A stretch of DNA of 50,355 nt, taken from NCBI GenBank assembly GCA_024407875.1, contig JAKSVT010000017.1, positions 1 through 50,355 on the forward strand, given 5' to 3'. Positions 5,124 to 50,355 of the stretch are shown here, piece after piece. Below the pieces are notes generated by a model, which was given only the letters and a program-made list of their open reading frames with translations, was not told the DNA's origin and ran no database searches. How positions within the stretch are numbered: position 1 is the stretch's first letter; each line of letters starts with the position of its first letter. The translations under genes were made by a program, and so were the position numbers. Source of the DNA: Alphaproteobacteria bacterium (lineage in GTDB: Bacteria > Pseudomonadota > Alphaproteobacteria > CAAGCB01 > CAG-977).

Positions 5124-5152
5124 TTTACAATATGGCAAAATTATGTTATACA
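5124..5152 (+). promoter_or_regulatory. Promoter of the Panacea toxin-antitoxin operon
   Basis: TTTACA (5124-5129) and TATACA (5147-5152) are 17 bases apart. A TGT immediately before the -10 makes it an extended -10. It lies 27 bases upstream of the antitoxin ATG, which is preceded by the ribosome-binding site AAAGGA. Confidence 0.5.
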
Positions 5153-21353: not shown

Positions 21354-23192
21354 TTGCTAAAAAAAATCTTCCATTTTTGTTTGTTTGCTTTATGTGTAAT
21401 TCTTTATGCAAGTGGTGCTTGTGCTCAAGTGCAGTTAGCTCCACCTGTTTTTGTTGCAGTGCGTGAAAAAACTTCGTTAAACGAAATAGAAAATTTATTA
21501 CGTTCAAGAAAAGATTTGCGCTATAAAGATAATAATGGTGATACGGTTTTAACATTAGCTGTTAAAAACAAATTAGATTGGAATATTATTAAGTTTTTAG
21601 TAAATTCTGGTGCTGATTTGCGTGAAAAGAATAATGATGGCAATACAGCACTTATGCTTTCTATTCTCGCAGAATATCCTGATGAAAATATTTTAAAATT
21701 AATCGATACAAAAAAAGCTATTAATAATAGAAATAAAAATGAAGATACGGCTTTGTTGTTTGCCTTAAAAGCTAATTCTAGTGAAGCTATAATTGATGCT
21801 TTAATTGATGCTGGTGCGGGTGTTAATATTAAAAATAAAGCAGGAGAAACACCTTTAATTATTGCTATGACAAATAAATATAAGGAAAGTGTTGTAGATA
21901 AGCTTTTAAAAGCAGGTGTTGATTTAAATGTTAAAAATACAGATGGTAAAACGGCATTATTTCTAGCAATAGAACAAGGTAAAGATTATTCATTTATTCG
22001 TAAAGTTTCTGACAAAAATATTGGCATAAATTCAAAAGATCAGTTCAAAAAAACTCCTTTGATGCTTGCTTTAGAAAAAAAATATGATCAAGCGGTTATT
22101 GAATATTTAGTTGATATTGAAAGTGGATTAATTGATCAGGATATTTATGGAAATATTCCTGCTATGATTGCTATAGAAAAAGATTATGATGCTAATATTA
22201 TTAGAAAATTAATTGATAAATCTAAGCAATCTTTAACAATGAGAAATTCTAATGGTGAAACTGTACTTTCTTTAGCTGTAGACAAAAAAAAAGATAATGA
22301 TTTTCTTAAATTTTTAATTGATTCAGGATCTGATGTTAATAATAAAAATAATAATGGTGAAATACCTTTAATTAAAATAATTAATAGAGATTATTCAGAA
22401 TTTAGAATAGTTGAATTGTTGGTTGAACAAGGTTCAATAATTGAAACACCAGATTCTAAAGGTAATACGGCAGTTCATTATGCTGCTCAGTTAAATCATC
22501 TCAAAATTTTAAAGTACTTACTTAAAAAAGGTTCTTTCAGTAATCTTAGAAATAATAGTGGTGAAACACCATTATATATGGCTTTAAGTAATACAATTCA
22601 TTATGGTGTAATTAAGAGTTTAATTGAAGCTGGTGCTGATCCTAGTTTTGTTAGATTTGATGGTTTAACACCATTAGTTATTGCTTTGAGAAATCATGCA
22701 AAATACGAAATTATTAAATTGATAATGGATGCGGCTCCATATAGTGTTAATGTTTCTGTTCCTCAAAAAGCTTTAGATTCAGATAGAATAGACACAACTA
22801 CTATGTATAAAGGCGCTATAATTAAATATATTGATGTTGGTGCTGGTGAATACGATAAGAATTTTATGTTGTATGATACTTATACAAATAGTTGGGATGA
22901 ACCTGTTCTTTTAGTAGCAATTAAATCAAAAGCTCCTTTAGAGGTTATGGATTTACTGGTTAAAGCAATAAATGCTGATATTAATGTAGTAGATAAACAA
23001 GGCAAGTCTTTATTGCATTATGCTTGTTTTGTATATGGCAATAACAACAAAATTATTAAACTTCTATTAGATAATAGAATTGATTTTAGTATGAAGGATA
23101 AAAATGGCTTTACAGCAAGAACTTATTGTGAAAAGTTTTATCCAACATTTAAAGAAAATATAAAAATGCTTTTGAAAGCAGAAGAGCGATAA
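21354..23192 (+). CDS. Secreted ankyrin-repeat protein
   Basis: A 612-residue protein starting at TTG. AGGA at 21341 supports this start, and only this start gives a full signal peptide (LKKIFHFCLFALCVILYASG, cleavage near ACAQ). The mature part is a long array of about 33-residue ankyrin repeats from residue 50 to the end. Typical units are NGDTVLTLAVKNKLDWNIIK and SKGNTAVHYAAQLNHLKILK, each with a GADVN-like turn. Ankyrin arrays bind other proteins; in host-associated bacteria they may be effectors, but periplasmic ankyrin proteins also serve in stress protection. It follows the Cys/His-tail gene by 2 bases and precedes the ABC exporter by 4, so it belongs to the same operon. Confidence 0.85.
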   Translation: MLKKIFHFCLFALCVILYASGACAQVQLAPPVFVAVREKTSLNEIENLLRSRKDLRYKDNNGDTVLTLAVKNKLDWNIIKFLVNSGADLREKNNDGNTALMLSILAEYPDENILKLIDTKKAINNRNKNEDTALLFALKANSSEAIIDALIDAGAGVNIKNKAGETPLIIAMTNKYKESVVDKLLKAGVDLNVKNTDGKTALFLAIEQGKDYSFIRKVSDKNIGINSKDQFKKTPLMLALEKKYDQAVIEYLVDIESGLIDQDIYGNIPAMIAIEKDYDANIIRKLIDKSKQSLTMRNSNGETVLSLAVDKKKDNDFLKFLIDSGSDVNNKNNNGEIPLIKIINRDYSEFRIVELLVEQGSIIETPDSKGNTAVHYAAQLNHLKILKYLLKKGSFSNLRNNSGETPLYMALSNTIHYGVIKSLIEAGADPSFVRFDGLTPLVIALRNHAKYEIIKLIMDAAPYSVNVSVPQKALDSDRIDTTTMYKGAIIKYIDVGAGEYDKNFMLYDTYTNSWDEPVLLVAIKSKAPLEVMDLLVKAINADINVVDKQGKSLLHYACFVYGNNNKIIKLLLDNRIDFSMKDKNGFTARTYCEKFYPTFKENIKMLLKAEER

Positions 23193-34231: not shown

Positions 34232-35254
34232 TTAATCAGCAATATCAGGAGCTGTGATATTTCCGCCGTCTTTTAATAATTTGTTCATTCCACGATTTAA
34301 ACGAAGTGGAGATTTTTTACCAATTCCACGTTCAATAATTTCGCCATAATTGCCCATTGTTGCAATAGTTCTACTTAACCAATTCTTATCAACACCTAAA
34401 GATGATGCGATTTTTTCATTGTTAGATAATAACGCGATTACTTGAGGATCTTTACTGTTTTCAAAATCTTCAATATTTTGTGCAGTAATTCCTTCTTCTT
34501 CAGCTGTGATTAATCCATTAATAAGCCATTGAATAATTTTAAATAATTCAGTATCAGCAGAAGAAATTACAGGACCTGTTTCATAAGTTCTTACAATTTC
34601 AGGTAAGACAACTAAATCAATTTCTTTAGGAGCTTTTTTAAAGTAGTTAGAATGTAAAATTTCTAAAGTTGAGATAAATAAATCACATCTATGTAAGAAT
34701 AATAAATCTTTCGCTCTTTCCATAGTTTGAATTTGCATAGGATGTAAATCCAAATTATGCTTTTTACTAAAATCCATTAAAGCTTTAATCATAAAATCAT
34801 CATTTAATACGCAAACTTTAGATCCTTGGTAATCACGCATTGAAGTGCTGTTTTCTTTATAATGAGCTAAAAATGCTAAAGCTGAATTATAAAATGGGCG
34901 AGGAAACATTAAGCCTCCAGTGATTTGACGTTTGGCTGTCCAATAATTTCCACCTAGTAAAACATCAATTTTGTTTTGTTTAAGCATATTATCACCCACG
35001 CCATAGTTTGCAGGGATTAATTCAATGGCAAAAGGATTTCCTATAATTGCAGTTGAAATAGCTTTACAAATTTCAGCATCAATACCAATTAAATCTTCTT
35101 TTGTTTTTTCAACATATGCATTTGCTAAAGTGTTAACACCACATTTAATTGTTCCTGATTGCTTAATACGTTCAACAACAGACCCAGCTGAGGCATTTTG
35201 AATGTATGATAAAGATAAAAGAACAGAAAAAACAAAAGAGAATAAAAGTTTCAT
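34232..35254 (-). CDS. Family 3 extracellular solute-binding protein (amino acid type)
   Basis: A 340-residue periplasmic binding protein. I chose the start at 35254 because it begins a clean signal peptide (MKLLFSFVFSVLLSLSYIQN, cleavage near ASAG). The longer frame to 35311 puts a hydrophobic non-signal segment in front. The mature protein starts with VVERIKQSGTIKCGVNT and has GIDAEICKAISTAI, the family 3 binding-protein pattern seen in general amino-acid transporters such as AapJ. No permease or ATPase gene is beside it, so it must work with a transporter encoded elsewhere. It faces the AlbA_2 gene across the nested hairpin. Confidence 0.83.
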   Translation of the reverse strand: MKLLFSFVFSVLLSLSYIQNASAGSVVERIKQSGTIKCGVNTLANAYVEKTKEDLIGIDAEICKAISTAIIGNPFAIELIPANYGVGDNMLKQNKIDVLLGGNYWTAKRQITGGLMFPRPFYNSALAFLAHYKENSTSMRDYQGSKVCVLNDDFMIKALMDFSKKHNLDLHPMQIQTMERAKDLLFLHRCDLFISTLEILHSNYFKKAPKEIDLVVLPEIVRTYETGPVISSADTELFKIIQWLINGLITAEEEGITAQNIEDFENSKDPQVIALLSNNEKIASSLGVDKNWLSRTIATMGNYGEIIERGIGKKSPLRLNRGMNKLLKDGGNITAPDIAD

Positions 35255-36903: not shown

Positions 36904-38412
36904 ATGAAAAGATTGTTTTTAGGTTTGATAATGCTGATGCCAAGCGTTGCGTTAGCGAGTTCAGATCCTTTAGGAACTGAAGATAAGGTGTTGAAGCCGA
37001 TGCCTTTAGCTCAATGTAATGTTGATGAAATGCAGACTTTATCATTGTCAGATGTTATTAACTTAACACTTTGTAGAAATCCAAAATCAAAACAAACATA
37101 TTTTGCTGCTATGGCTGCAGCTGCAGATTTAGGAGCTGCAAAATCAGGATATTATCCAAAATTGGATTTTGATGCTGATGTAAATGTTAGATCAACAAAG
37201 GTTGATTCAGGAAATTATGATAATTCTTCTACAGGAAGAGTTGGATTATCTTTAAATTGGTTGTTATATGATTTTGGTGCGAGATCAGCTAATAAGAAAA
37301 GCACAATGTATGCTTTAGATGCGGCAATGAGAACTCATTCTGATTCATTGCAAGACTTGATTTTTGAAGCAGCTTCTGCTTATTTCAAAATTTTTGAGTC
37401 AAGAACTGAAGCAAAAAATGCACAAGAAACAGTTGTTCATGCAAAAGAAGCAAGTAATGCAACATATAAGCGTTATCAATTAGGATTGTCAGCTTTTTCT
37501 GATAAATTACAAGCAGACACAACATTAGCTCAAGCAGAGTTAAAATTAACAAAAGCAAAAGAAGCTGAAGTTGTTGCTATGAGCAATTTAGCAATGTTGA
37601 TGGATTTACATCCAACAACTGTATTAAAAGTTAAGGAACCTGATTCATCTATAGATATTTCTGTAATTGATCCTTATGAGGTTTTGTTGGAATCTGCTTT
37701 AAAAAATCGTGCAGATATCAAGGCTTCAAAAGCACAAGTTGCACAATCAAAAGCAATTTTAGATCAACGTAAGGCAAATGATACAGCAACAATTAATTTA
37801 AATGCGGGAACTTCTGCACAAGATAATTTCTTACGTCCACCAGAAAATAAAGTTTATACAAGTCAAGCAGGTATTAATTTGAATGTTCCTATTTTTACAG
37901 GATTTAATAATACTTATAAAATTAGACAAGCTGAACACAATGTAAATAGAGCTGTTGCTAGCTTGAAGACATTAGAAAATCAAGTTGAAAAGAAATTATG
38001 GGAAACATATCAATCTTATTTAACTAGTGAAAAATCATATCAAGCATCATTAGTAATGTTGACTTCTGCTACACAAAACCAAAATGTTGCAATTGGTGCG
38101 TATAAAGCAGGTAGAGGAGACATTTTAAGCGTATTAGAAGCTAATGAAAAAATGGCAGATGCTTTAACAAGTAAAACAAATGCTTATTATGATTTAATTA
38201 TTTCTAAAATCAATTTAATAAGACAAGCAGGCAGATATGATCCATTTAATGAAAGTGGAAATTATTTGTTAGCTGAAAAACAAGCACAACAAAATGTTGT
38301 AATACCAGAACAAATTGTTGAAACTGATCAAGCTTATGTTGCAAAAGAAACTAATCAACAAGAAACTTCTGAAGAAAATAACCAAACACCACAGCAAGAG
38401 GTAGGTGAATAA
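36904..38412 (+). CDS. TolC-family outer-membrane channel protein
   Basis: A 502-residue outer-membrane factor. The signal peptide is MKRLFLGLIMLMPSVALA. Two helical repeats follow, each starting with the TolC pattern: LSLSDVINLTLCRNPKSKQ (near 47) and PYEVLLESALKNRADIKASK (near 258). GYYPKLDFDADVNVRS and VYTSQAGINLNVPIFTGFNN give the beta-barrel strands. The tail of about 60 residues is rich in Gln, Glu and Asn and looks disordered. It overlaps the next gene by one base and is the exit channel of the pump encoded by the four-gene operon. Confidence 0.9.
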   Translation: MKRLFLGLIMLMPSVALASSDPLGTEDKVLKPMPLAQCNVDEMQTLSLSDVINLTLCRNPKSKQTYFAAMAAAADLGAAKSGYYPKLDFDADVNVRSTKVDSGNYDNSSTGRVGLSLNWLLYDFGARSANKKSTMYALDAAMRTHSDSLQDLIFEAASAYFKIFESRTEAKNAQETVVHAKEASNATYKRYQLGLSAFSDKLQADTTLAQAELKLTKAKEAEVVAMSNLAMLMDLHPTTVLKVKEPDSSIDISVIDPYEVLLESALKNRADIKASKAQVAQSKAILDQRKANDTATINLNAGTSAQDNFLRPPENKVYTSQAGINLNVPIFTGFNNTYKIRQAEHNVNRAVASLKTLENQVEKKLWETYQSYLTSEKSYQASLVMLTSATQNQNVAIGAYKAGRGDILSVLEANEKMADALTSKTNAYYDLIISKINLIRQAGRYDPFNESGNYLLAEKQAQQNVVIPEQIVETDQAYVAKETNQQETSEENNQTPQQEVGE

Positions 38413-39563
38413 TGAAAAAATTTTTAGTATTTTTATTAATCGTAATTATTGCATTGGGAGCTTTTTGGTTTATAAAAAGTAAAAATGGAAGTGAACGTGT
38501 CGTTTATGATTACGATAAAGCTCATTATGGTAATATCGAAATCGAAGTTACAGCATCTGGTACAATACAACCTGTGAATGTTGTTTCTGTAGGTACACAA
38601 GTTTCTGGTACAATTGAACATATTTATGTGGATTATAATTCAGTTGTTGAACAAGGACAATTAATTGCTGAATTAGATCCTTTTACTTTAGATGAAAGTT
38701 TAAAAGAATCTGAAGCAACCTTAAAAGAAACTATTGCTAAATTGAAACAAGCAAAAGTTGATGAAAGAAGAAATGCTGAATTATATAAATCAAATTATAT
38801 TTCAAAGCATGAATGGGAAGAAACACAGATTTCTTTAGTTTCTGCAGAAGCTAGTTATAAAAGAGCTTTAGCAGAATTAAATAAAGCAAAGAAAAATAGA
38901 GGTTATGCTCAGATTTTATCACCAGTTTCAGGTACTGTTATTACAAAAGCTGTTGAAGAAGGACAAACCGTTGCTTCTAGCTTTAATACTCCAGAATTAT
39001 TCAAAATTGCTGAAGATTTAAAAAAGATGCAAATTGAAGCTTCTGTTTCTGAAGCTGATATTGGATCTATAAAAGTTGGAATGCCTGTTGAATTTACAGT
39101 AGATACATATACATCTGATATATTCTTTGGAAGAGTTTCACAAATACGTTTGCAACCAAAAGAAGATTCAAATGTTGTTATGTATACAGTTATCATTTCA
39201 ATCTCTAATGATGATTTACGTTTAATGCCTGGTATGACAGCTTATGTTTCAATCAAAGTTGAAAATAAGGAAAATGTTTTAAGAATTAAAAATCTTGCAT
39301 TCCAATATAGACCAGTTGTTGCAGGCGAACGTAGTAAAAATGTTTCAAATGCTGAAAAAGCAAAAATTAAAGCTGAAAGACAAAGTTTAAAACCAAATGA
39401 ATCTTTCTTATATAAAGAAATAGATAATAAACCTTTCAAAATTAAAGTTGTAAAAGGCATTCAAAATTTGGTTTATACAGAAATTCTTGAAGGCTTAAAA
39501 GATGGTGACAAAGTAATTGTTGAAGATTTAACTACTAAAGTTAAAACAAAACGGAGCCATTAA
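38412..39563 (+). CDS. macA: MacA-like periplasmic adaptor (membrane fusion protein)
   Basis: A 383-residue inner-membrane-anchored adaptor joining a MacB-type ABC protein to a TolC channel. One N-terminal membrane segment (4-22) is followed by a lipoyl half-motif (TASGTIQPVNVVSVGTQVSG, then TIEHIYVDYNSVVEQGQLIA). An alpha-hairpin with SLVSAEASYKRALAELNKAK and the second lipoyl half RGYAQILSPVSGTVITKAVE come next. The beta-barrel and membrane-proximal domains complete the protein. An unusual Lys-rich insertion (VSNAEKAKIKAERQSLK) occurs near 315-335. It overlaps both neighbours by one base. Confidence 0.92.
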   Translation: MKKFLVFLLIVIIALGAFWFIKSKNGSERVVYDYDKAHYGNIEIEVTASGTIQPVNVVSVGTQVSGTIEHIYVDYNSVVEQGQLIAELDPFTLDESLKESEATLKETIAKLKQAKVDERRNAELYKSNYISKHEWEETQISLVSAEASYKRALAELNKAKKNRGYAQILSPVSGTVITKAVEEGQTVASSFNTPELFKIAEDLKKMQIEASVSEADIGSIKVGMPVEFTVDTYTSDIFFGRVSQIRLQPKEDSNVVMYTVIISISNDDLRLMPGMTAYVSIKVENKENVLRIKNLAFQYRPVVAGERSKNVSNAEKAKIKAERQSLKPNESFLYKEIDNKPFKIKVVKGIQNLVYTEILEGLKDGDKVIVEDLTTKVKTKRSH

Positions 39564-40282
39564 TGAGTGTAATATCTATCCAAAACGTTTGCAAAACGTA
39601 TGTCATGTCAGCAGGCATGAGCCAGGATGTTTTAAAAAATGTTAATTTAAATGTAGAAAAGGGCGAGTTTGTTGCCATTATGGGACCTTCTGGTGCAGGA
39701 AAGTCTACATTTATGAATATTTTAGGATGTTTAGATAGAGCTTCTTCTGGTAATTACTATTTATCAGGAAAAAATGTTTCTAAAATGAATGATAATGATT
39801 TGGCTCGTGTTAGAAACAAAATGATAGGTTTCGTATTTCAAGGCTTTAATCTTTTGATGCGTAGAAGCATTTTGGATAATGTTTCTCTTCCTATGATTTA
39901 TGATAAAGATGGGCGCGATCCAAGAGTTCGTAGAGCTAGAGCAGAAAAATTGTTGGATATGGTTGGATTAACAGGGTTTATTGATCGCTTTCCAAATCAA
40001 ATTTCGGGAGGTATGCAACAACGTGTTGCAATTGCTAGAGCTTTAGTTAACGATCCTGAAATGATTTTAGCTGATGAACCTACAGGAAACTTAGATACAA
40101 AGACAAGTAATGAAATTATGGATTTTCTTGTTAAATTAAATAGAGAACAGGGAATTACTATAGTATTAGTTACTCATGAGCCTGATATTGCCTGTTATGC
40201 AAAAAGATTGGTTCGTGTTGTTGATGGCCAAATTGCCTATGATGGTGATGTAAAGCAATATATGGAGAATAACAAGGCATGA
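39563..40282 (+). CDS. MacB-type ABC transporter ATPase (separate polypeptide)
   Basis: A 239-residue ABC ATPase. The Walker A is [19 protein letters not shown]. The Q-loop [19 protein letters not shown] and the signature [19 protein letters not shown] are typical of the MacB/LolD group. The Walker B reads [15 protein letters not shown], and the H-loop is [15 protein letters not shown]. All catalytic residues are present. In E. coli MacB this domain is fused to the permease; here it is a separate gene, overlapping the permease gene by 4 bases. It powers export with MacA and TolC. Confidence 0.92.
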
Positions 40283-41493
40283 TAAAATTAATTTTACAAG
40301 AAGCCTGTTTATCCATTGCAGGCAATAAATTACGTTCTTTTTTAACAACTTTAGGTATTATTATCGGTGTTTGTGCTGTTGTTATGATGGTTGCAGCAGG
40401 ACAAACTGTTCAAAGAATTATTCAAGAAAGATTTGTTTCTTTAGGTGCAAACTTATTGATTATTCGTTCGGAAAGACCAAAAGCAAATGTTAAAATATCT
40501 GGCCCAACTACTTCAATTACCTTAGAAGATGCTAATAGTCTAAAACGTTTACGTGGTATTGAAACGGTTGCTCCTGTATTAAGTGCAAATGCTCAAGCTA
40601 TTCGTGGACCTAATAACTGGAATGTTTCTGTTATTGGATCAACACCAGATTTTATGAAAACACAAAATTGGGAAATAAATTTAGGACGTATGATTGACAA
40701 ACAAGATATTAGAAAGGGAACTTCTAATGTTGTAATTGGTCAAGAAGTCGTAGATGAACTTTTTAAAGATGAAGATCCAATTGGTAAAATTTTCCGTGTT
40801 GGAAAAAATCAGTTTACAATTGTAGGAACTTTGAAAGCAAAAGGTACTTCTTCTAGTGCAGCTAATCAAGATGCTTCTGTCATTATGCCTTTATTAACAG
40901 TACAACGTAGATTTAATAGATATGCAAAATTAAATGCTTTAAATCACATAGCTGTTAAGTTCGTTGAGACAGAAGACTTAAATATTGTTGAACAAAGAAT
41001 TACACGCCATCTAAGAGCTCGTCATAAAATTAAAGATGAAGATCCTGATGATTTTAGAATTTTTAATGTGGCAGAATTTGTTGAAAATATTAGATTGATT
41101 GGTAGAGTTTTATCAATTCTTTTGGCAGCAATAGCTAGTATATCTTTGGTTGTTGGTGCCATTGGTATTGTTAATATGATGTTAGTATCTGTAACAGAAA
41201 GAACGAGAGAAATAGGTATTCGTAAGGCTTTGGGTGCTCCTAATTTATGGATTATGATGCAATTTTTGATTGAAGCAGTTCTGATTTCAATGATTGGTGG
41301 TGTTGTTGGATTAGGTTTAGGCATTGGCTTGTCTCAAGTAGCCGGAAAAATCTATAATGTAGAAGTTCCATTTAGCTTATGGCCAGTTGTACTATCATTT
41401 TCAGTAGCATTTTTTGTTGGTGTTATTTCAGGTGTATTTCCAGCATATAAAGCAATGAAATTAGATCCAATTGAAGCTTTAAGATATCAATAA
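40279..41493 (+). CDS. MacB-type ABC transporter permease (FtsX-like)
   Basis: A 404-residue permease. It has the MacB layout: an N-terminal membrane helix (NKLRSFLTTLGIIIGVCAVV), a large periplasmic domain (about 40-275), then three helices with the conserved VGAIGIVNMMLVSVTERTRE and IGIRKALGAPNLWIMMQFL. The C-terminus reads GVFPAYKAMKLDPIEALRYQ. MacB is a mechanotransmission pump that moves periplasmic substrates through TolC, including macrolides and a disulfide-bonded heat-stable enterotoxin in E. coli. It closes the operon and is followed by a terminator. Confidence 0.92.
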   Translation: MIKLILQEACLSIAGNKLRSFLTTLGIIIGVCAVVMMVAAGQTVQRIIQERFVSLGANLLIIRSERPKANVKISGPTTSITLEDANSLKRLRGIETVAPVLSANAQAIRGPNNWNVSVIGSTPDFMKTQNWEINLGRMIDKQDIRKGTSNVVIGQEVVDELFKDEDPIGKIFRVGKNQFTIVGTLKAKGTSSSAANQDASVIMPLLTVQRRFNRYAKLNALNHIAVKFVETEDLNIVEQRITRHLRARHKIKDEDPDDFRIFNVAEFVENIRLIGRVLSILLAAIASISLVVGAIGIVNMMLVSVTERTREIGIRKALGAPNLWIMMQFLIEAVLISMIGGVVGLGLGIGLSQVAGKIYNVEVPFSLWPVVLSFSVAFFVGVISGVFPAYKAMKLDPIEALRYQ

Positions 41494-41518: not shown

Positions 41519-41554
41519 CAAAGCAGCCCATTTGATAAAATTTGGGCTGTTTTT
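41519..41554 (+). terminator. Rho-independent terminator of the pump operon
   Basis: CAGCCCA (41524-41530) pairs with TGGGCTG (41543-41549), with flanking A/T pairs extending the stem, and TTTTT follows. It separates the pump operon from the Cys-rich locus. Confidence 0.8.
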
Positions 41555-41576: not shown

Positions 41577-41602
41577 ACATAATTTCGCCACAATTATAGA
41601 AT
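41577..41602 (+). promoter_or_regulatory. Shared upstream block, probable promoter of Cys-rich pair 1
   Basis: ACATAATTTCGCCA (41577-41590), then TAGAAT at 41597-41602, recurs with one mismatch at 48104-48117 upstream of the fifth Cys-rich gene, also followed by TAGAAT. It lies between the terminator and the first Cys-rich ATG and probably includes the promoter. Confidence 0.45.
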
Positions 41603-41641: not shown

Positions 41642-43579
41642 ATGAAAAAGATATTTTGTGTATTAATTTTGTTTTTTACGAATATTATTTCAACAAATGA
41701 AGCTAACGCTCTTGCTACAACATCATGTTCTTTGACTATGGCTCAATGTAATGCATGTTGTAGAGGAGGTTGTATGATTGCATATAATGATGCAAATGGT
41801 AATCCTTGTGCTGAATGTGCAGGTGGTGGATGTGGTGTGGATCCTATTATGGGATTTGATGATACTGGATTTGGTGATGATCCTACTCCTCCTAGTGGTG
41901 GCGGCTCAGGTGGTAGCTCAGGTGGTGGATCTGGCGGTGGCTCAAGTAGCGGATCTTCTTGCGGATCATATGAGATAAGAATTCCTGGAGGAACAACATG
42001 TTTATATACAGGTCAAGCTTATTCAGGTTCAACATGTTGTAGGTGTACTACATCTACTTGTTGTCATATGTATGGTACAGCTTGTAATAATTGTACATCA
42101 GGTTATTGCCAAGGATGTTCTGCTGGATATAAATATATAAGTTCAGGAAAATATTGTGAAAGATGTCCTGCAGGAACTTATTCTAACTCAGGTGCTACAT
42201 CGTGTACACCTTGTCCAGTAGGTAAATATTCAACTTCAGCAGGATCATCTTCATGTACATCCTGTCCTAGTGGACAAACAACAGATTCTACAGGTTCAAC
42301 AAGTTCTTCTCAATGCCATGTGATAGCATGTAATGTTGCACATTGTTCTACTTGCGAACAAGGTTTATCAAATTCTTGTCAAACTTGTCAAAGTGGATAT
42401 TATAAGTATTCTGCAGGTTCTAGTTCTTCAGGATCTGCTGGTAATAGATGGGGATGTAAGGCTTGTTCTGAAATTGCTGTAAGCCATGGAACATGTACAG
42501 CTTGTTCAGCTACGGGATCTTGTACAGCAGTATCATGCGATTCAGGATATCATGCTTCAGGAACTTCTTGTGTAGCAGATGGCGTAAGTTGTCCATCAGA
42601 TTTCTTCTTGAGTAGTAGTTGTCCAACAGGTTGTCCAACACTTGCAACTGGTTGTGCGTTCTGTCAAACTTCAGGAACAGGATCAGGTAGTTCTGGATCA
42701 AGTTCATTCTATTACTGTACATCATGTAAAGATGGCTATAGATTAGGTACTAAAGGAAATTGTATAGCTATAGTGCCTATAGATCATTGTCTTGCTGATG
42801 ATGGACATGGTAAATGTGTTCGTTGTGAAGATGGATATTATGCAAGTGATGATCAAACACAATGTTTGTCTTGTATTGCAAAACATGGCAATTGTTGTAT
42901 GGAATGCACTAAGAACTCATGTAATGTTTACGGAAACCAAAATGGTTATATGATGCAAGGAAGCTCTTGTGTTGTAGAAACAGATGGCTGTGAAAGAGAT
43001 TCTAGCGTAACATCATGTTATAGAGGCTGGAAATGTAATGGTAAAATTACAAATGAAAATTATTCCGGATTCTCAAAAAGATGTGAAAATTTCAAAGTAT
43101 TTAGTAGTGCTTATGGACATGCAAATATAGGTTATTGTACGACATGTAAGCCAAATTATAAGCTTAATTCATGTAATGATTGTGAATGGGATGGTTGTCC
43201 TGCAGGTAAATATACTGTTGTAGGATCAGGAAATAATCCTAATACATGTCAAACATGTTCGGGTTCAACATATCAACCAAATAATAAATATTCTGGTTCA
43301 AGTTGTACTCCATGTCCAGCAGGAACATCTCCTAATGCGGAACATACAGCTTGCGTTTCTTCAGCATGTAATGAAGTAGCAAACGCTTTTGAATGCGCGA
43401 CTGTATGTGAAGATGGAATATGCTGTGATAATAAGGATGAATTCGGAAAATGTATTGGTCCAGATTGTTATCCAGGATATGTATACAACACGTTAACTGG
43501 ACAATGTGATAAACAAGACGATCCATGTCCAGCAAATTACACACAACAAGGCTGTTGTTGTGTACCTAGCGAAAATTAA
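41642..43579 (+). CDS. Large secreted cysteine-rich protein 1 (ephrin-receptor-like repeats)
   Basis: A 645-residue secreted protein with 83 Cys, one of them in the signal peptide (1-24, ending ANALA). Residues 30-65 are a Cys cluster, and 82-106 a Gly/Ser linker. From about 172 to 230 there are GCC2/GCC3 (ephrin-receptor-like) units: CPAGTYSNSGATSCTPCPVG, then KYSTSAGSSSCTSCPSG. Further CxxC-rich modules follow, with a repeated SGY/DGY turn (YYCTSCKDGYRLGTKGNC). The last 70 residues form a domain shared with the second large protein, ending in TQQGCCCVP. The spacing pattern indicates extensive disulfide bonding in the periplasm or outside the cell. No membrane anchor or lipobox is seen. The gene is followed 18 bases later by the small Cys-rich partner. 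The function is unknown; adhesion or a protective coat is possible. Confidence 0.85.
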   Translation: MKKIFCVLILFFTNIISTNEANALATTSCSLTMAQCNACCRGGCMIAYNDANGNPCAECAGGGCGVDPIMGFDDTGFGDDPTPPSGGGSGGSSGGGSGGGSSSGSSCGSYEIRIPGGTTCLYTGQAYSGSTCCRCTTSTCCHMYGTACNNCTSGYCQGCSAGYKYISSGKYCERCPAGTYSNSGATSCTPCPVGKYSTSAGSSSCTSCPSGQTTDSTGSTSSSQCHVIACNVAHCSTCEQGLSNSCQTCQSGYYKYSAGSSSSGSAGNRWGCKACSEIAVSHGTCTACSATGSCTAVSCDSGYHASGTSCVADGVSCPSDFFLSSSCPTGCPTLATGCAFCQTSGTGSGSSGSSSFYYCTSCKDGYRLGTKGNCIAIVPIDHCLADDGHGKCVRCEDGYYASDDQTQCLSCIAKHGNCCMECTKNSCNVYGNQNGYMMQGSSCVVETDGCERDSSVTSCYRGWKCNGKITNENYSGFSKRCENFKVFSSAYGHANIGYCTTCKPNYKLNSCNDCEWDGCPAGKYTVVGSGNNPNTCQTCSGSTYQPNNKYSGSSCTPCPAGTSPNAEHTACVSSACNEVANAFECATVCEDGICCDNKDEFGKCIGPDCYPGYVYNTLTGQCDKQDDPCPANYTQQGCCCVPSEN

Positions 43580-43597
43580 TTCTAGGGAGGAAAGAAA

Positions 43598-44413
43598 ATG
43601 AAAAAACTATTTTATATTTTTGTTTTAGTATTTTGCTTAATTTCTCTAGATGCTCAAGCAAAGACTTGTAAGTTAGGTAGAAATTGTAATGAAACAGGCT
43701 CAAGAGGTGGAGATAGTTCAAGAGCTTCAGCTGGATGTAAATCTGATGCCGATTGTGAAGGATCTGTTTGTAATTTAACTACTCATAGATGTGTTTCAAA
43801 ATGTGATCCAAAAGTATTTACACAATCATGCTCAGGAGATACTCCAACTTGTGTTATCGTAGATGGAACCGCTAAATGTGGTTGTACGGAAGATAGCCAA
43901 TGTAAAGGAACTTATAAACACTGTTCATCACAACATCAATGTGTTGAATGTGTAGCTGATGATCAATGCCCTTCAAATGAAAAATGTAGCTCAATTTCAA
44001 ATAAGTGTGAACCAATTGTTTGCGAAGTTGAAAATTGTAGCGAATGTGTAATTGGAGATGGAACAGCTTGCCAAACATGTGCTGAAGGCTTTAAATTAGA
44101 AGATGGCCAATGTTTACATTGTGATGTTTCAAATATGGAAGGCCTACTTGATCATGGCGTATGTAATTCTTGCACATATTACTCAGGTGATGCAATTTGT
44201 ACATCAGGAACATGTGATGAAGGATATGAATTTAATTCCTCAACGGGACGTTGTGAAAAACAAGAATGTGTAGGTAATGAGGTTTATATCGAAGGTGTTG
44301 GATGTACGGAAGACTATTGTCAGGGATTAACAGGAATATGTGTTCAAGGCCAAACATCAACATATTATTGGACTAATAATACCTCTAAAAAGGCATGTTG
44401 TTGTGAAAAATAA
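43598..44413 (+). CDS. Small secreted cysteine-rich protein 1
   Basis: A 271-residue secreted protein with 38 Cys, 37 after the signal peptide (MKKLFYIFVLVFCLISLDAQ, cleavage near AKT). The early block AGCKSDADCEGSVCNLTTHR and the SQHQCVECVADDQCPSNEKC block resemble Dickkopf- or WAP-like Cys spacing. CEVENCSECVIGDGTACQTC is an EGF/TNFR-like module. The protein ends with CTEDYC, YYWTNNTSKKACCC and EK. The ribosome-binding site GGGAGG is very strong. It is coupled to the large protein upstream and is a clear paralogue of the gene at 47087. I know no characterised relative. Confidence 0.82.
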   Translation: MKKLFYIFVLVFCLISLDAQAKTCKLGRNCNETGSRGGDSSRASAGCKSDADCEGSVCNLTTHRCVSKCDPKVFTQSCSGDTPTCVIVDGTAKCGCTEDSQCKGTYKHCSSQHQCVECVADDQCPSNEKCSSISNKCEPIVCEVENCSECVIGDGTACQTCAEGFKLEDGQCLHCDVSNMEGLLDHGVCNSCTYYSGDAICTSGTCDEGYEFNSSTGRCEKQECVGNEVYIEGVGCTEDYCQGLTGICVQGQTSTYYWTNNTSKKACCCEK

Positions 44414-44505
44414 GGATATTTAAATTTTTAATTCTTGATTAAAAAGGGAAATTTGTTTAAAATTTTTTAAAATTATGATAAGAGACTTATCCAAAATAGC
44501 ATTAG

Positions 44506-44525
44506 TATAATATCATTAATGATAT
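44506..44525 (+). promoter_or_regulatory. Promoter -10 with overlapping 16-base palindrome, Cys-rich pair 2
   Basis: TATAAT (44506-44511) has no good -35. ATATCATTAATGATAT (44510-44525), a perfect palindrome, overlaps its end. The gap (144 bases) has no clear terminator after pair 1. The ribosome-binding site is GAGGAG. Confidence 0.45.
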
Positions 44526-44557
44526 GTGACGAAAGCTTGATAACGAGGAGATAGGAC

Positions 44558-47068
44558 ATGAAAAATGCACTAGTGTTTATATTAACTATATTAGCTTTTA
44601 CTTCAAAGGCTTATAGTAGCATGGATCCTTATGGTGATTGTCAATCAGAAACAAACTATCAATATCAATATACCACGGGATATTGTAGATCTTTTGCGAC
44701 AAAACCTTATAGATCTGTAACAGGTACTACAGAATATTGTAATGTGGGTTGTGTAAGTGCAGCTCCTGGTTATTATTTGGTAGCTTTAAAAGGTTCATAC
44801 AAAAGAGAAGAGGCTTGTCCTAAAGGATATTACTGTACAGGTGGAACTGCTGATAAACAAGCTTGTCCTGCAGGCAAGACAACAAATGATGTTAGAGCAT
44901 ATGCTGTAGAGCAATGTAATGTTTCTACATCTAGTACTACGCCAACTGCAAGCGTTTGTGTTGAAGAGTATGTAACAGAAGTAGATAAATCTGTATCTTT
45001 GGCATCTGGATATAAATGTGAAGGATATTCAACAAGTAATGGTAATTCATCTCATACTGAATCAGGCGGTTGTGTGGCTGGTAAATTTAAAGCTTATAAT
45101 CATCATGGAACAAATTGCTTTAGATGTTTAGAATGTAAAATGGGATATGAACATACAAGGTTTAATGGATGTATTTTTACTAGATGTCCTGCAAATTACT
45201 ATGCAAAGCAACAAGGTGCAGGTAAGCAATGTATAGCTTGTCCAGCAGGAACAACAAGTCCTGCAGGGTCAACAAAAGCTGCAGATTGTGTAGCACCTAT
45301 AGCTTATGCATGTACTGTAGAACATGGCCATGGTACTCCAGATTCTCAAGGACGTTGTGCGTCTTTAGTTTGTGATAGTGGTTATTATCCAATTGGTGGC
45401 GGTGGTAGTTGTGGCTCAACAGGTCAGCAATATAGTGCATCAGCATGTATTCCAGAATCATGTAGATCTTCAGGTGGAACAGTAACCCCTTCAGTTCCAA
45501 GTGGTCCAAGTAAATGTACATTAGCAAATGGTACATGCTCAGGACAAGCATATAACGGATCTTCAGGTTGTACATGTCAATCAGGTTCATGTAATTCTGG
45601 CTATGACAAGAAGATGGTTTATAAAGACAATTCTATGTTCTCAGGAAGTAGCTTTTATTGTCAGCAACAATTAGTAGCATGTTATGAAGGATTTACATGC
45701 TGTGGTAATGGTTGTGCAGAATGTACAAGTGCTAATGAAAAAAGTAATCGTCAATGCATTTTCTGTGCTCAAGACTATTATTTATCTACATCATTATATG
45801 GATTCGGGGATAATAATGGATGTACGAAATGTCCAACGGGTACACATTCATCTGTAGGATCTGTTGGAATAGATTCTTGTAAGTATACATCTTGTCCAAA
45901 AGGCAAACTGTTAAGTGATGGAAAATGTTTAGATTGTCCGGTTGGTACATATCAGCCAAACGATAATTCAACAGCTAAACTTTGTATAAGTTGTCCAATT
46001 GGATATTCGACTAGTGATGTTGGTACAACAGCTTTAATTGATTGTGTGCCAGAAGTCCCTAATTGTCCAGAAGGTGCAACAACAGCATATAGTTCTTTAT
46101 TAGTTGAAAATTGTGCTGATGTTGCGTTATGTAGACAAGGTCGAGATGATAGATATTATTGTAGAAATTGTAACTCAGGATATGTTTTGCAAAATGGTAC
46201 TTGTGTTAGAATAACAACATCATGTCAAGCAGGATATTTCTTGCCAGATCCAAGAGCAGGATGTCAAATTTGTCCAAAGAATGCATATTGTCCTCAAGGA
46301 GCTATAACTCCTACACCATGTCCAAGTGGATATGTTACAGAAACAACAGGAAGTAAGTCTGTTTCAGATTGTAAGGCATTAAATGCTTGTCCAGGAGGTA
46401 CTTCTTCAATAAAAACATATACAAGTTGTCCAGATGAATGTTCAAATTGTATGGAATGTTTGGCTAATGGAACAAAGAAATATATGTGTACAGCATGTAG
46501 AGTAGGAGCAACATGGGTTGCATCTTATCAAGAATGTTTACAAATGACATGTCCATCTGGTTATAAGATTGTACACGCAAGTTCAATTGCAAATTGTCAA
46601 AACTCAGGAATGTGTTGGGATAATGGACCTGCCATGTTCTGTAGATCATGTGATAATGGCTATACATTAAATGCTAATGGTTTATGTGATAGAAATGGAT
46701 GTGCAAAAGGTTATTACCAAGGTTCAAGTAATATTTGTACAAAGTGTCAAGTTGGATATGTTCAACCTGATGATAATTCATTTGCAACAAGTTGTACAAA
46801 ATGTGCAACAGGCTTGACATCAAATTCTGATTTTACAGCTTGTGTTCCAGCAACATGTTCACATGTTCCAAATTCATATGAATGCCATTCATTCTGTGAA
46901 AATGGTAAGTGCTGTGATAATAAGGATTCAGCAGGAAATTGTGTAGGTCCAATTTGTTATCCAGGTTATGAATTAAACAGATCAACAGGTTTGTGTGAAA
47001 AAGTAATTAATCCATGTCCAACAGATTATACACAGCAAGGTTGTTGCTGTGTTCCAAAAGCTAACTAA
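44558..47068 (+). CDS. Large secreted cysteine-rich protein 2
   Basis: An 836-residue secreted protein with Cys throughout (about one residue in nine). The signal peptide is MKNALVFILTILAFTSKAYS. Ephrin-receptor-like units occur at several places (CIACPAGTTSPAGSTKAADC near 225, CLDCPVGTYQPNDNSTAKLC near 457, CTKCQVGYVQPDDNSFATSC near 727). Residues 611-710 are a distinct module of about 100 residues that recurs three times in the fifth protein; its second half also appears at 506-549. The last 70 residues match the end of large protein 1, with FCENGKCCDNKD and TDYTQQGCCCVP. It is followed 18 bases later by its small partner. No membrane anchor is seen. The function is unknown. Confidence 0.85.
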   Translation: MKNALVFILTILAFTSKAYSSMDPYGDCQSETNYQYQYTTGYCRSFATKPYRSVTGTTEYCNVGCVSAAPGYYLVALKGSYKREEACPKGYYCTGGTADKQACPAGKTTNDVRAYAVEQCNVSTSSTTPTASVCVEEYVTEVDKSVSLASGYKCEGYSTSNGNSSHTESGGCVAGKFKAYNHHGTNCFRCLECKMGYEHTRFNGCIFTRCPANYYAKQQGAGKQCIACPAGTTSPAGSTKAADCVAPIAYACTVEHGHGTPDSQGRCASLVCDSGYYPIGGGGSCGSTGQQYSASACIPESCRSSGGTVTPSVPSGPSKCTLANGTCSGQAYNGSSGCTCQSGSCNSGYDKKMVYKDNSMFSGSSFYCQQQLVACYEGFTCCGNGCAECTSANEKSNRQCIFCAQDYYLSTSLYGFGDNNGCTKCPTGTHSSVGSVGIDSCKYTSCPKGKLLSDGKCLDCPVGTYQPNDNSTAKLCISCPIGYSTSDVGTTALIDCVPEVPNCPEGATTAYSSLLVENCADVALCRQGRDDRYYCRNCNSGYVLQNGTCVRITTSCQAGYFLPDPRAGCQICPKNAYCPQGAITPTPCPSGYVTETTGSKSVSDCKALNACPGGTSSIKTYTSCPDECSNCMECLANGTKKYMCTACRVGATWVASYQECLQMTCPSGYKIVHASSIANCQNSGMCWDNGPAMFCRSCDNGYTLNANGLCDRNGCAKGYYQGSSNICTKCQVGYVQPDDNSFATSCTKCATGLTSNSDFTACVPATCSHVPNSYECHSFCENGKCCDNKDSAGNCVGPICYPGYELNRSTGLCEKVINPCPTDYTQQGCCCVPKAN

Positions 47069-47086
47069 TTCTAGGGAGATAAGAAA

Positions 47087-48064
47087 ATGAAAAAACTATT
47101 TTATATTTATGTTTTGATGTTTTGTTTAATCTCTTTAGATGTTCATGCTGCCGCTTGTAAATTGGGTAGAGACTGTGGTGGTGAATCTTCTGGAGTGGGA
47201 AGAAGTTTAAGAGCGAACGCAGGATGTGATTCTGATGCTGACTGCGAAGGGTCTATTTGTGATACTAAAACACGTAGATGCGTTTCTCCTTGTGATCCAA
47301 AAGTATTTAAACAAACATGTACAGGCGATACACCAAGATGTGTCGTTGTAGATGGTAAAGCACAATGTGGTTGTACAGAAAACAATCAATGTAAAGGAAC
47401 ATATAAATATTGTTCTTCACAGCATGAATGTTCAGAATGTACAAAAGATGAACATTGTCCTGCTAACGAAAGATGTAATTCTGTTTCATTTAAGTGCGAA
47501 CCGATACCATGTGAAGTTGAAAATTGTACAGAATGTGTAATTGGAGATGGTACAAAATGTGCTACATGTGCAGAAAGCTTCAAGCTTGACAATGGACAAT
47601 GTACATCATGTGATGTTTCTGTAATTAAAGATTATTTTGAAAACGGAACATGTAACACTTGTTCGTATTCAGCAGGTGATGCTGTATGTACATCTGCAAC
47701 ATGTAATGTTGGTTATGAATTTAATTCAACAACAGGATTATGTGAAAAACAAATTTGTGTAGGAAACGAAGTGTTCATTGAAGGTGTTGGTTGTACAGAG
47801 GATTATTGTCAATCCCTAACAGGATTATGTGCTAAGGGTGATTCCATTAATTACTATTGGACAAACAATACAGAGAAAAAAGCATGTTGTTGTGAAACAG
47901 ATGCAACGTCTACTTCAGTAAGCACTGGTACACCGTCAGTATATTCGGGCAGTTCAAGTGGTGGAACAGGTGCTGGTGGAGGTGCCGGGAATAAAACTTG
48001 TATGGGAACTGATGGTAGGCTTGTAGCAAATTGTACGCCTAATAATGTGGTTTCTGCTAGATAA
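47087..48064 (+). CDS. Small secreted cysteine-rich protein 2 with C-terminal extension
   Basis: A 325-residue paralogue of the protein at 43598. The signal peptide (MKKLFYIYVLMFCLISLDVH) and the first 270 residues align almost without gaps and keep the Cys positions: CDSDADCEGSICDTKTRRC, CEVENCTECVIGDGTKCATC, TEDYCQSLTGLC and WTNNTEKKACCC. It then continues for about 55 residues that its paralogue lacks: a Ser/Thr/Gly-rich linker (STSVSTGTPSVYSGSSSG, GTGAGGGAG) and a final Cys pair in KTCMGTDGRLVANCTPNN. The extension may be a cell-surface spacer or a fused peptide. The junction with the upstream gene is copied from pair 1 at the nucleotide level. The ribosome-binding site is GGGAGA. Confidence 0.82.
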   Translation: MKKLFYIYVLMFCLISLDVHAAACKLGRDCGGESSGVGRSLRANAGCDSDADCEGSICDTKTRRCVSPCDPKVFKQTCTGDTPRCVVVDGKAQCGCTENNQCKGTYKYCSSQHECSECTKDEHCPANERCNSVSFKCEPIPCEVENCTECVIGDGTKCATCAESFKLDNGQCTSCDVSVIKDYFENGTCNTCSYSAGDAVCTSATCNVGYEFNSTTGLCEKQICVGNEVFIEGVGCTEDYCQSLTGLCAKGDSINYYWTNNTEKKACCCETDATSTSVSTGTPSVYSGSSSGGTGAGGGAGNKTCMGTDGRLVANCTPNNVVSAR

Positions 48065-48071
48065 ATTTTGA

Positions 48072-48102
48072 AAATAAGCGACTGTTAAAAAGTCGCTTAT
48101 TT
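48072..48102 (+). terminator. Hairpin terminator after Cys-rich pair 2
   Basis: AAATAAGCGACT (48072-48083) pairs perfectly with AGTCGCTTATTT (48091-48102) around a 7-base loop. The T-tract is short, but the stem is strong. Confidence 0.65.
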
Positions 48103-48103
48103 A

Positions 48104-48132
48104 ACATAATTTTGCCATTATTAGAATATAAT
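48104..48132 (+). promoter_or_regulatory. Shared upstream block, probable promoter of the fifth Cys-rich gene
   Basis: ACATAATTTTGCCA (48104-48117) repeats the block at 41577 with one change, followed by TAGAATATAAT (48122-48132), which contains a perfect TATAAT. The ribosome-binding site GGAGA lies at 48156-48160. Confidence 0.45.
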
Positions 48133-48166
48133 ATAAAATATAAGGATAATTTATCGGAGAAACGAT

Positions 48167-50355
48167 ATGAAAAAGATAATAAGCTTATTAATTTTATCAA
48201 TTGCTTTTGTTGGATTTTCAAGTGAAGCTTATGCAAGAGATTGTAAGCCTATGGATTCTGATAATTGTAATACGTATAATGGAACTGGAGGCTGTAGACA
48301 ATGGGTAGCATCGTCAGCTTCAGCTTGTTATACAAGGGATAAAAAAGGATGTGAATGTAAAGAAACTTATCCAGGATATTATATGTCCTCTGATTTAGAC
48401 ATTTTTGAATGTCCTATCGGATCATATTGTCCTGGTCATGTTGGGGCTGGTGGTAAAACTGATTGTACAGGTGGAAAGACGACATGTCAGTCCAAGAGTC
48501 AAAACTCAGCACAGTGCGTTTCACCGGCATCTTGTACGTCATCATCTACAGGAGATGCATGTGTAGCTTGGAAGGCTAATTATGATACATGTCCAGTAGA
48601 GGCTACATCATGTTCAACATGTAAATCAAATGGAAAAACACGTTATGTAGTTAATTCATGTAAACAAGGAACATCTTTACATGCAGGAGATTACACATGT
48701 CATCCAATAGATTGTGGTAGTCATACAACATTTACAAATTCATCAATAAGTAATTGTTCTTCAGTATCAGTTTGTTGGAAGAATAATGCGACAGCATGGT
48801 ATTGTAATCAATGTAATTCAGGTTATTTGTTAGTTGGTGGTGGCTGTGGAAAAGCTTGTGAAGCTGGATATTTCTTGCCATCTTATCAAGCAGGATGTCA
48901 AAATTGTCCTCAAAATGCTTACTGTCCAGCAAACTCAACATCTCCTACAAGTTGCAATACAGTTGGTCAAGGTTATGTAACTGATCATAATAAGGCAAAA
49001 ACAGCTTCAGAATGTCATAGTCCAAGTACTAATGGAACAACAACAAGTGAGGGATGCCCAACAGGAAATACAACAGTATTTTCTTCATGTCCAACACTTT
49101 GTAATTGTGCTGAATGTAATCAAAATGGAACTAAAAAGTATTATTGTACAAGCTGTAAAGATGGTGGATCATTTAGAACCTCAGACTATACTTGTCAAGA
49201 ACTCTCATGTCCATCAGGAAAAACATTAAGTTCTTCATCTTATATAGCAAATTGTGCTAAATCAACTAAATGCTTTAAAGATGGTACAGCTAAATACTAT
49301 TGTGATCAATGTAATAGCGGTTATACTTTAAATAGTAATGGAACATGTTCTGGAGGTTCTACATTACCTGCATGTCCAGGTCCTGATAGTGGAAAGCAAA
49401 TTTATGCAACATGTCCAACACCTTGTGCATCATGTACTAAGTGTGCAAGACAGGACAATGGTCAAACAAATTATTATTGTGCAAATTGTAAAGCAGGTGT
49501 TTCATTTACAGTTGAAACATATACATGTACACCAATTAATTGCCCATCTGGAGTTACAACAAGCACAAGTAGTACTATAGCAGGATGTTCATCAACAGGA
49601 GTATGTTGGGCAAATAATAATACAGCATATTATTGCAAAACATGTAATACAGGATATACATTAACTTCACAAGGAACATGTACTAAAGCTGAATGTACAA
49701 ATTTAGATGAAAAATTCTGTTTACCATTAAGTGGATCAGCAAATAGTGGTTGTGGAAACTATTATAATGCAACATCAACAGCAGGATGTTCAAAATGGTC
49801 TCAAGTTTCAGATTGTTGTAATACAAATCCAGGATGCCGTTGTACAGGACATGCACTTAAAGGATATTATTGGGATAAGAGTGTAACTCCATATCCAACA
49901 AAGTGTCCAGGCAATCAAACAACAGATGGTGAAGGAGCAACGAGTGTATCTCAATGTCATTCTATAGATTCATGTACTATAGCATCATCAAATTTCTGTT
50001 TGCCGTATTCTCCAGCAAATTCATGTAAGACATATAATGATGACGAACCTGGTTGTGTTTGGGAAAAATCTAATGATTGTTGTCAAGCAGGACTTCCAGG
50101 AGGATATGATAGTGGATGTCGTTGTACAAAAGTAAATCCAGGATATCACTGGACCAGTCAAGATAAAGCTAATGGAATTTCATTCCCAGTTTTATGTGAA
50201 GTAGGATACTATTGCTTAGGTGGAGATAATGATCATATGCCATGTCCAGAAGGAAAATATTCACCATCAGGAGCAAAATCAGAAGATGAATGTGTAGTAA
50301 ATTGTCCTACAGGACAATCACTAAAAGAAGGTAAATGTGTACCTGATCATGGAAC
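48167..50355 (+). CDS. Very large secreted cysteine-rich protein, 3' end outside the window
   Basis: An ATG at 48167 opens a frame with no stop through to the window end: 729 residues so far. The signal peptide is MKKIISLLILSIAFVGFSSE, cleavage near AYA. Two kinds of module alternate. Type 1 (about 139-227, 297-394, 403-505) ends with a pattern like CWKNNATAWYCNQCNSGY and recurs in the 836-residue protein. Type 2 (about 26-117, 510-597, 603-709) has a GC-x-C-rich start, a GYYW or GYHW turn and CPxGK. A unit CEAGYFLPSYQAGCQNCPQN also matches the 836-residue protein. No anchor is visible in the part seen. Reverse-strand open frames across it are a by-product of its codon use. Confidence 0.85.
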   Translation, partial: MKKIISLLILSIAFVGFSSEAYARDCKPMDSDNCNTYNGTGGCRQWVASSASACYTRDKKGCECKETYPGYYMSSDLDIFECPIGSYCPGHVGAGGKTDCTGGKTTCQSKSQNSAQCVSPASCTSSSTGDACVAWKANYDTCPVEATSCSTCKSNGKTRYVVNSCKQGTSLHAGDYTCHPIDCGSHTTFTNSSISNCSSVSVCWKNNATAWYCNQCNSGYLLVGGGCGKACEAGYFLPSYQAGCQNCPQNAYCPANSTSPTSCNTVGQGYVTDHNKAKTASECHSPSTNGTTTSEGCPTGNTTVFSSCPTLCNCAECNQNGTKKYYCTSCKDGGSFRTSDYTCQELSCPSGKTLSSSSYIANCAKSTKCFKDGTAKYYCDQCNSGYTLNSNGTCSGGSTLPACPGPDSGKQIYATCPTPCASCTKCARQDNGQTNYYCANCKAGVSFTVETYTCTPINCPSGVTTSTSSTIAGCSSTGVCWANNNTAYYCKTCNTGYTLTSQGTCTKAECTNLDEKFCLPLSGSANSGCGNYYNATSTAGCSKWSQVSDCCNTNPGCRCTGHALKGYYWDKSVTPYPTKCPGNQTTDGEGATSVSQCHSIDSCTIASSNFCLPYSPANSCKTYNDDEPGCVWEKSNDCCQAGLPGGYDSGCRCTKVNPGYHWTSQDKANGISFPVLCEVGYYCLGGDNDHMPCPEGKYSPSGAKSEDECVVNCPTGQSLKEGKCVPDHG

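Follow-up and report, generated by a model that had tools for sequence, protein, structure and literature searches.

Introduction

Bacteria seldom export proteins that are very rich in cysteine. Those of Chlamydia, the best known, are central to the envelope becoming rigid. In Giardia, the variant-specific surface proteins (VSPs) form a multigene family of exported, very cysteine-rich proteins with a variable body and a conserved C-terminal part. Here we compare with both a locus that occupies the last 8.7 kb of a stretch of 50,355 nucleotides from an alphaproteobacterium (assembly GCA_024407875.1, contig JAKSVT010000017.1), hereafter the window. The locus encodes two families of exported, cysteine-rich proteins, which we call A (large) and B (small), in A–B pairs; the B proteins carry an N-terminal KLGR motif and, in nearly all pairs, a module with a run of three cysteines (CCC). 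In Chlamydia, the outer membrane complex that contains the cysteine-rich OmcA and OmcB is heavily cross-linked by disulfides (PMC6752827). Like these two proteins, A and B are a large and a small exported cysteine-rich protein encoded as a pair, for which intermolecular disulfides are predicted here. Unlike them, the large gene comes first, the set is multigene, variable and mosaic, and A carries ephrin-type repeats; no window protein matched a chlamydial cysteine-rich family in Pfam or NCBIfam at E <= 1.

The likeness to the VSPs lies in a multigene family of exported, very cysteine-rich proteins that combine a variable body with a conserved C-terminal part. However, the window proteins lack a transmembrane tail and the CRGKA end, have no Pfam VSP match, and come as a bacterial two-gene unit with the KLGR motif. 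The third relevant group is that of the Ephrin_rec_like, or GCC2-GCC3, proteins (the Chlamydomonas protein Mst1, Elapor1 and the Eph receptors), which share PF07699 repeats with two of the A proteins, whereas bacterial export, a paired operon, the KLGR motif and the CCC terminus are foreign to that family. Our literature search found no description of such proteins in these bacteria.

Two alternating families of cysteine-rich proteins

The window is the entire contig C9 of an assembly of 1.77 Mb in 47 contigs, and its end is the contig end. The tmRNA of the assembly is alphaproteobacterial (E = 3.2e-71, with Caulobacter the only control genome matching), which places the assembly in the Alphaproteobacteria. 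Five open reading frames (ORFs) make up the locus:

41642..43579, + strand: gene A1 (ORF 1), 645 aa, 12.9% Cys, Sec signal peptide
43598..44413, + strand: gene B1 (ORF 2), 271 aa, 14.0% Cys, Sec signal peptide, 18 bp after A1
44558..47068, + strand: gene A2 (ORF 3), 836 aa, 10.9% Cys
47087..48064, + strand: gene B2 (ORF 4), 325 aa, 12.3% Cys, 18 bp after A2, with a Gly/Ser-rich C-terminal extension
48167..50355, + strand: gene A3 (ORF 5), at least 729 aa, 11.2% Cys, cut by the contig end

A first-pass annotation had described them as five consecutive, co-directional genes for Sec-exported, cysteine-rich proteins, and so they are. Their cysteine content (10.9-14.0%) compares with 1.35% in 36 further ORFs of the window (binomial log10 P from -25 to -52), and all five N-termini show a plausible cleavage site behind a positively charged n-region and a hydrophobic core. 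The strong bacterial ribosome-binding sites that it reported are also present, GGGAGG and GGGAGA on the B genes. The repeated CxxC patterns held for part of the set: relative to shuffled sequences, CxxC is about twofold enriched in ORF 1 and 1.6-fold in ORF 3, and stays at the level expected from composition in ORFs 2, 4 and 5. The GC content is 36% in the cysteine-rich region against 30% before it, a rise of which coding for Cys, Gly and Pro could be the source.

The annotation had also proposed an organisation in large/small pairs, and both complete units of the window have A followed by B after an 18-bp gap. The order is A–B, A–B, A, i.e., two complete copies and one cut, with the partner B of A3 expected beyond the contig end. 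The five proteins do not form a single family: B1 and B2 are 69% identical to each other and unlike ORFs 1, 3 and 5. Nor did a single characterised family cover all five, since Pfam matches the repeats of A only and neither NCBIfam nor PHROGs gave a meaningful match. The complete proteins end in ..GCCCVPSEN (A1), ..ACCCEK (B1), ..GCCCVPKAN (A2) and ..NNVVSAR (B2), and the C-terminal motif that had been called shared (CPxxYTQQGCCCVP) aligns between ORFs 1 and 3, within the following conserved regions:

43352..43576, + strand: C-terminal region of A1, which ends in CPANYTQQGCCCVPSEN and is conserved in an alignment with A2 and with the C20 A gene
46841..47065, + strand: conserved C-terminal region of A2, ending CPTDYTQQGCCCVPKAN (alignment with A1 and the same C20 gene)

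A proteins generally end in CP..GCCC or a close variant, with CC within the last 20 residues in 17 of 19 (4 expected after shuffling).

The same genome holds further units on other contigs: an A (at least 1203 aa, cut) and B on C20, an A (1610 aa) and B on C13, and an A (723 aa) and B plus a cut A on C7. Solitary B-like genes lie on C20, C12 and C17. The total seen is about seven A genes, five paired B genes and three solitary B-like genes. Three contigs of the genome end within A genes, and the last 55 bases of C9, inside A3, are exactly the last 55 of C7, as assembly graphs leave at a repeat.

Domain and fold matches of the A and B proteins

The part of the system that matches a known domain is the repeat of the A proteins. 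PF07699 (gathering score 23.1) matches A1 with 50.7 bits (E=1.5e-13) and A2 with 41.9 bits (E=8.7e-11). A3 stays below the cut-off, with single stretches of at most 19.9 bits and no match for the whole protein. The strongest repeat is:

42173..42316, + strand: best Ephrin_rec_like (PF07699) repeat of A1, 56.6 bits, above the cut-off

At the sequence level A1 matches the mastigoneme protein Mst1 (3.7e-8), EphB2 and Elapor1, and its structure model gives weak fold matches to thyroglobulin, mastigoneme, TNFR and Eph modules. B1 and B2 belong to no Pfam family, and for the B family there was no match in NCBIfam, PHROGs or PDB and no solved homologue; the model of B1 is fair (pLDDT 73), and its fold matches, to EGF, furin-like and TNFR modules, are weak.

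Two other small-genome families of the class (G049, G100) also encode proteins with PF07699-type repeats, which lack KLGR. One of these proteins, in G100 (L089:3-1469), joins a type IV pilin-like N-terminus (GRSMVEMLGTLAIMGVL) to an ephrin-receptor-like cysteine repeat and a Hint/pretoxin-HINT domain; this fusion is a different way of displaying the repeat.

The A–B unit across the order

We searched 12 genomes of the order, from three genera, and a class-wide sample of 289 genomes. A unit was defined as a cysteine-rich exported A followed within 30 bp by a cysteine-rich B bearing AKxxKLGR, and both complete units of the window have this composition. Counting copies in related genomes, as the first-pass annotation had suggested, gave 21 A–B pairs in 9 of the 12 genomes, with gaps of 4-29 bp (one pair has its A cut by a contig end); a 22nd pair was found later. 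The two families keep together from one species to the next. Sizes shift by lineage. In the window's genome A has 645-1610 aa and B 251-325 aa, and in G004 A can be as short as 98-102 aa and B has 252-572 aa; overall, A ranges from about 98 to 1610 aa, and the number of A genes varies between species.

The motif of B usually lies where the signal peptide is predicted to be cleaved:

43658..43681, + strand: AKTCKLGR motif of B1 (residues 21-28, profile E=1.1e-18), which falls on the predicted cleavage site of the signal peptide
47147..47170, + strand: AAACKLGR motif of B2 (profile match and reading of the sequence)

We used six of the 12 order genomes to build a profile of the signal peptide plus AKxxKLGR at the N-terminus of B. 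It has matches at E < 1e-5 in nine of the 12, and reading of sequence stretches revealed KLGR proteins in all 12. Across the 289 genomes of the class the profile found no KLG outside the order, the matches in G043 and G099 being plain signal peptides without it. Among 43 proteins selected on the core K-L-G, A stands at position -4 in 37, K or R at -3 in 35, and R after G in 28. The start of the motif coincides with the predicted signal-peptidase site in most and lies about 12 residues further in for one group. A general export signal is not supported: the KLGR proteins that we read are all cysteine-rich, part of this reading having used a cysteine filter.

In genomes of all three genera (G000, G001, G007 and G008; L033:5786-6457, L139:3248-3847, L136:5090-5809 and L140:9300-9971), one solitary B-like gene has an RNase D-type gene (PF01612 plus HRDC) as a direct or close neighbour. 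This B-like gene is conserved and single-copy, with about 200-240 aa and 20 cysteines. We read it as an ancestral and probably housekeeping member of the B family, and its position by the RNase D-type gene in the three genera points to vertical inheritance. A phage or plasmid origin was rejected, as no relative appeared when phages were searched with B1 and plasmids with A1 by tblastn, in PHROGs, or in a scan of viral contigs with B1. Scanning the genome collection with B1 gave one weak, cysteine-driven match without KLGR, in a deltaproteobacterial metagenome-assembled genome (NP119, L039:2564-4327); this protein has 587 aa, 13.3% Cys and a lipoprotein-like start (LLLVYGGCGATKC), and resembles B1 through its cysteine spacing.

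Cysteine parity and the CCC module

An exported protein whose cysteines all pair with one another has an even number of them. We counted cysteines on complete proteins after removal of the signal peptide, in an analysis that was not fixed in advance. The number is even in 19 of 20 solitary KLGR proteins and odd in 14 of 21 B proteins paired with an A (Fisher 5e-5, unchanged after clustering). Four of the solitary proteins are orthologous, and collapsing them leaves 16 of 17 even. The difference goes with one short module, exemplified by B1:

44330..44410, + strand: CCC module at the C-terminus of B1, a C-terminal hairpin in the structure model

A CCC run is present in 20/21 paired B but in 1/20 solitary KLGR proteins, and in 37 of 41 KLGR proteins the cysteine count and the tally of CCC runs are both even or both odd. 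This suggests, as the simplest reading, that KLGR proteins are fully oxidised and that each CCC module spares one cysteine, unpaired within the protein, for a partner. Because the counts of A proteins are mostly even (15/20), the partner of this cysteine is likelier a second B or another envelope protein, and a single A–B disulfide is not favoured as the explanation of the odd counts. The exception to the parity rule, a solitary KLGR protein with an odd cysteine number, is in G005 (L123:3458-4534) and has four near-identical repeats of about 70 aa (CGYGCTTGWDI..YLVNGTNYTCQTA).

Diversification of the A genes

Between the two complete units of the window, identity between A1 and A2 is 33% in the body and 62% over the final 60 residues, against 69% between B1 and B2, so that the A bodies are the most divergent part of these units. 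At least one A gene is, from its sequence, a mosaic of paralogues. The first 300 nt of A5, on contig C7, are 99.7% identical to the A of C13; the next 159 nt are 84% identical to A2, the following 333 nt 89% identical to A3, and the final 55 nt identical to A3. An assembly join could not have produced the 84-89% blocks. Distances between A C-termini correlate with those between the B proteins (0.36; permutation within genus 0.0065, within genome 0.23).

Promoter and transcript organisation

The locus has the following non-coding elements:

41524..41554, + strand: terminator-like hairpin with a T-run (CAGCCCA...TGGGCTG TTTTT), between macB and A1 (sequence reading)
41578..41595, + strand: A-specific promoter element CATAATTTCGCCACAATT, 46 bp before A1 (exact 18-bp match)
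48073..48101, + strand: hairpin AATAAGCGACT..AGTCGCTTATT after B2 (sequence reading)
48105..48122, + strand: A-specific promoter element CATAATTTTGCCATTATT, 44 bp before A3 (exact 18-bp pattern)

The shared promoter block of the first-pass annotation was recovered upstream of ORFs 1 and 5, and none was present upstream of ORF 3. It corresponds to an 18-bp element (CATAATTTYGMCAYWATT) upstream of A1, A3, the A of C13 and A5 of C7. In a scan of two whole genomes (3.77 Mb), all five exact copies sit 44-52 bp before A genes, the fifth being the A of contig C65 in G011, and a copy with one mismatch precedes the other A gene of C7. With two mismatches allowed there are 16 and 19 matches against 5 and 7 for a reversed control, the weaker ones mostly without an assigned gene; in the window these include 5128-5145 (- strand, 2 mismatches) and 34334-34351 (+ strand, 1 mismatch), away from the cysteine-rich genes. 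The element contains two CATAATT half-sites 11 bp apart that overlap a -35-like TYGMCA, and it may be an activator site or an extended promoter.

A and B are almost certainly co-transcribed. A2 has no element of its own and is probably on one transcript with A1–B1, and the hairpin after B2, as read from the sequence, is probably the end of an A1-B1-A2-B2 transcript. Directly upstream of A1, on the same strand, lies a complete operon for TolC, a MacA-type adaptor, an ABC ATPase and a MacB-type permease (36904-41493), separated from A1 by the terminator-like hairpin. No TolC/MacA/MacB genes lie beside the A–B units read in other genomes. For these two reasons we do not count the operon as a translocation component encoded with the cysteine-rich genes. 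The suggestion of a secretion system thus found no backing in the locus: by Pfam none of the five proteins has a channel or transport domain, and no translocation component occurs among the cysteine-rich genes. That of one coordinated locus stands as far as the pairs, promoter elements and C-terminal motifs go; the genes nevertheless belong to two alternating families and to a dispersed multigene set.

Discussion

We hold at about even confidence that A and B are lineage-specific, paired, disulfide-rich exported proteins that form a cross-linked and diversifying surface coat or adhesin. The first-pass annotation had made a similar guess, a disulfide-linked coat or adhesin set; it is still the best one, with indirect support from the parity of the cysteine counts. 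The parts of this proposal differ in strength. Export of both proteins by Sec is close to certain given their signal peptides. The genome encodes a DsbA-like protein and a DsbD/CcdA-type (DsbD_TM) protein, so oxidation of the cysteines is likely, and it is highly probable that both proteins carry disulfides. The partnership of A and B is very likely, and an intermolecular bond through the CCC module is an even call. The variability, copy number and fibre- or receptor-like modules suggest surface display, which is somewhat probable, and an adhesive or protective role; that the proteins act as adhesin or coat falls just short of even; and the idea that variation serves evasion or binding specificity is tentative.

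In this proposal, A and B would be exported by Sec and their cysteines oxidised in the periplasm. A would be a chain of small ephrin-receptor/TNFR-type disulfide modules, i.e., a stiff and variable stalk, and B a shorter string of modules whose KLGR-marked N-terminus might act as a sorting or docking signal. Through its CCC module, B would hold one cysteine free to bond with another B or with an envelope protein, and the assembly, cross-linked to itself or to the envelope, would be displayed on the cell surface. Duplication and the exchange of segments would keep the A bodies changing, as in surface proteins on which a host, predator, phage or neighbour exerts selection.

Several observations weigh against such a coat. 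No anchor, outer-membrane domain or exporter was identified for these proteins, and their exit from the periplasm is therefore a supposition. The model of A1 is poor (pLDDT 49). The parity rule was found after the fact, and of three complete proteins found later two fit it and one does not; a simple one-bond link between A and B is not suggested by parity, given the mostly even A counts. The co-divergence of A and B is significant within genera but not within genomes, and the near-identity of the C7 and C13 genes could partly be an assembly join in a 372-base repeat.

Other explanations account for part of the same data. A and B might form a disulfide-linked stiffening layer of the chlamydial kind, confined to the periplasm or to the underside of the outer membrane and not displayed. 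The co-encoded large and small proteins, the predicted spare cysteine of B and the Dsb proteins would suit such a network, and OmcA and OmcB are its precedent in a disulfide-cross-linked outer membrane complex (PMC6752827). Yet a structural layer should keep its size and sequence, while A spans about 98 to 1610 aa, varies in number and is mosaic, and there is no Pfam match to the chlamydial family, which makes this reading unlikely. We regard as more doubtful still that A–B complexes are released as effectors or decoys that mimic the cysteine-rich extracellular modules of eukaryotic cells in the gut, whether of protists or of the host. The best solved relatives of the A repeats are indeed eukaryotic, an ankyrin-repeat protein in the window hints at host-associated life, and the MacAB-TolC genes are directly upstream. 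However, the latter are not next to the units in other genomes, short cysteine-driven repeats of the PF07699 type can arise without eukaryotic descent, and no catalytic domain was found.

The density of cysteines, the CxxC pairs and the CCC runs would also fit unoxidised cysteines that bind metals as in metallothioneins and buffer metals or thiols. This is very improbable: the proteins enter an oxidising compartment that has a DsbA-like protein, even counts in 19 of 20 solitary members fit disulfide pairing, the cysteine spacing matches disulfide repeats and CxxC is not enriched in B. Finally, the contig ends inside a cysteine-rich gene and the GC content rises from 30 to 36%, as might be seen if a eukaryotic fragment had been joined to a bacterial contig, the chimera that the first-pass annotation had named as its own refutation. 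Such an artefact or contamination has a negligible probability and was ruled out: the genes occur on six contigs, i.e., five besides the window, next to bacterial genes and with bacterial ribosome-binding sites and promoters; they recur in relatives of the order; one member is syntenic with the RNase D gene in all three genera; and the tmRNA is alphaproteobacterial. The genes are thus native to this genome, as had been claimed.

The repeats are known; neither the libraries nor the literature that we searched contained the A–B unit, its KLGR motif, its CCC module or the promoter element. An order of uncultured Alphaproteobacteria with genomes of about 2 Mb has multiplied a paired cysteine-rich module that has its own promoter, N-terminal motif and predicted spare thiol. 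If KLGR is a sorting signal and CCC a device for covalent coupling, both are new, and the A–B proteins would be natural candidates for contact with hosts, protists or phages. The boldest version, an order-specific surface-display system in which a dedicated promoter, KLGR sorting and CCC coupling serve a recombining, hypervariable fibre or coat in parallel to the coats of protozoa, is possible but speculative.

Other genes of the window

Away from the locus, an ORF of 165 aa (20854-21351) has 6.7% Cys and a His/Cys/Lys-rich tail (HCHHDKKDEDCKKGKKKRSCCHKDK); it does not look exported and is possibly metal-binding. The ankyrin-repeat protein (21354-23192) lies directly after it.

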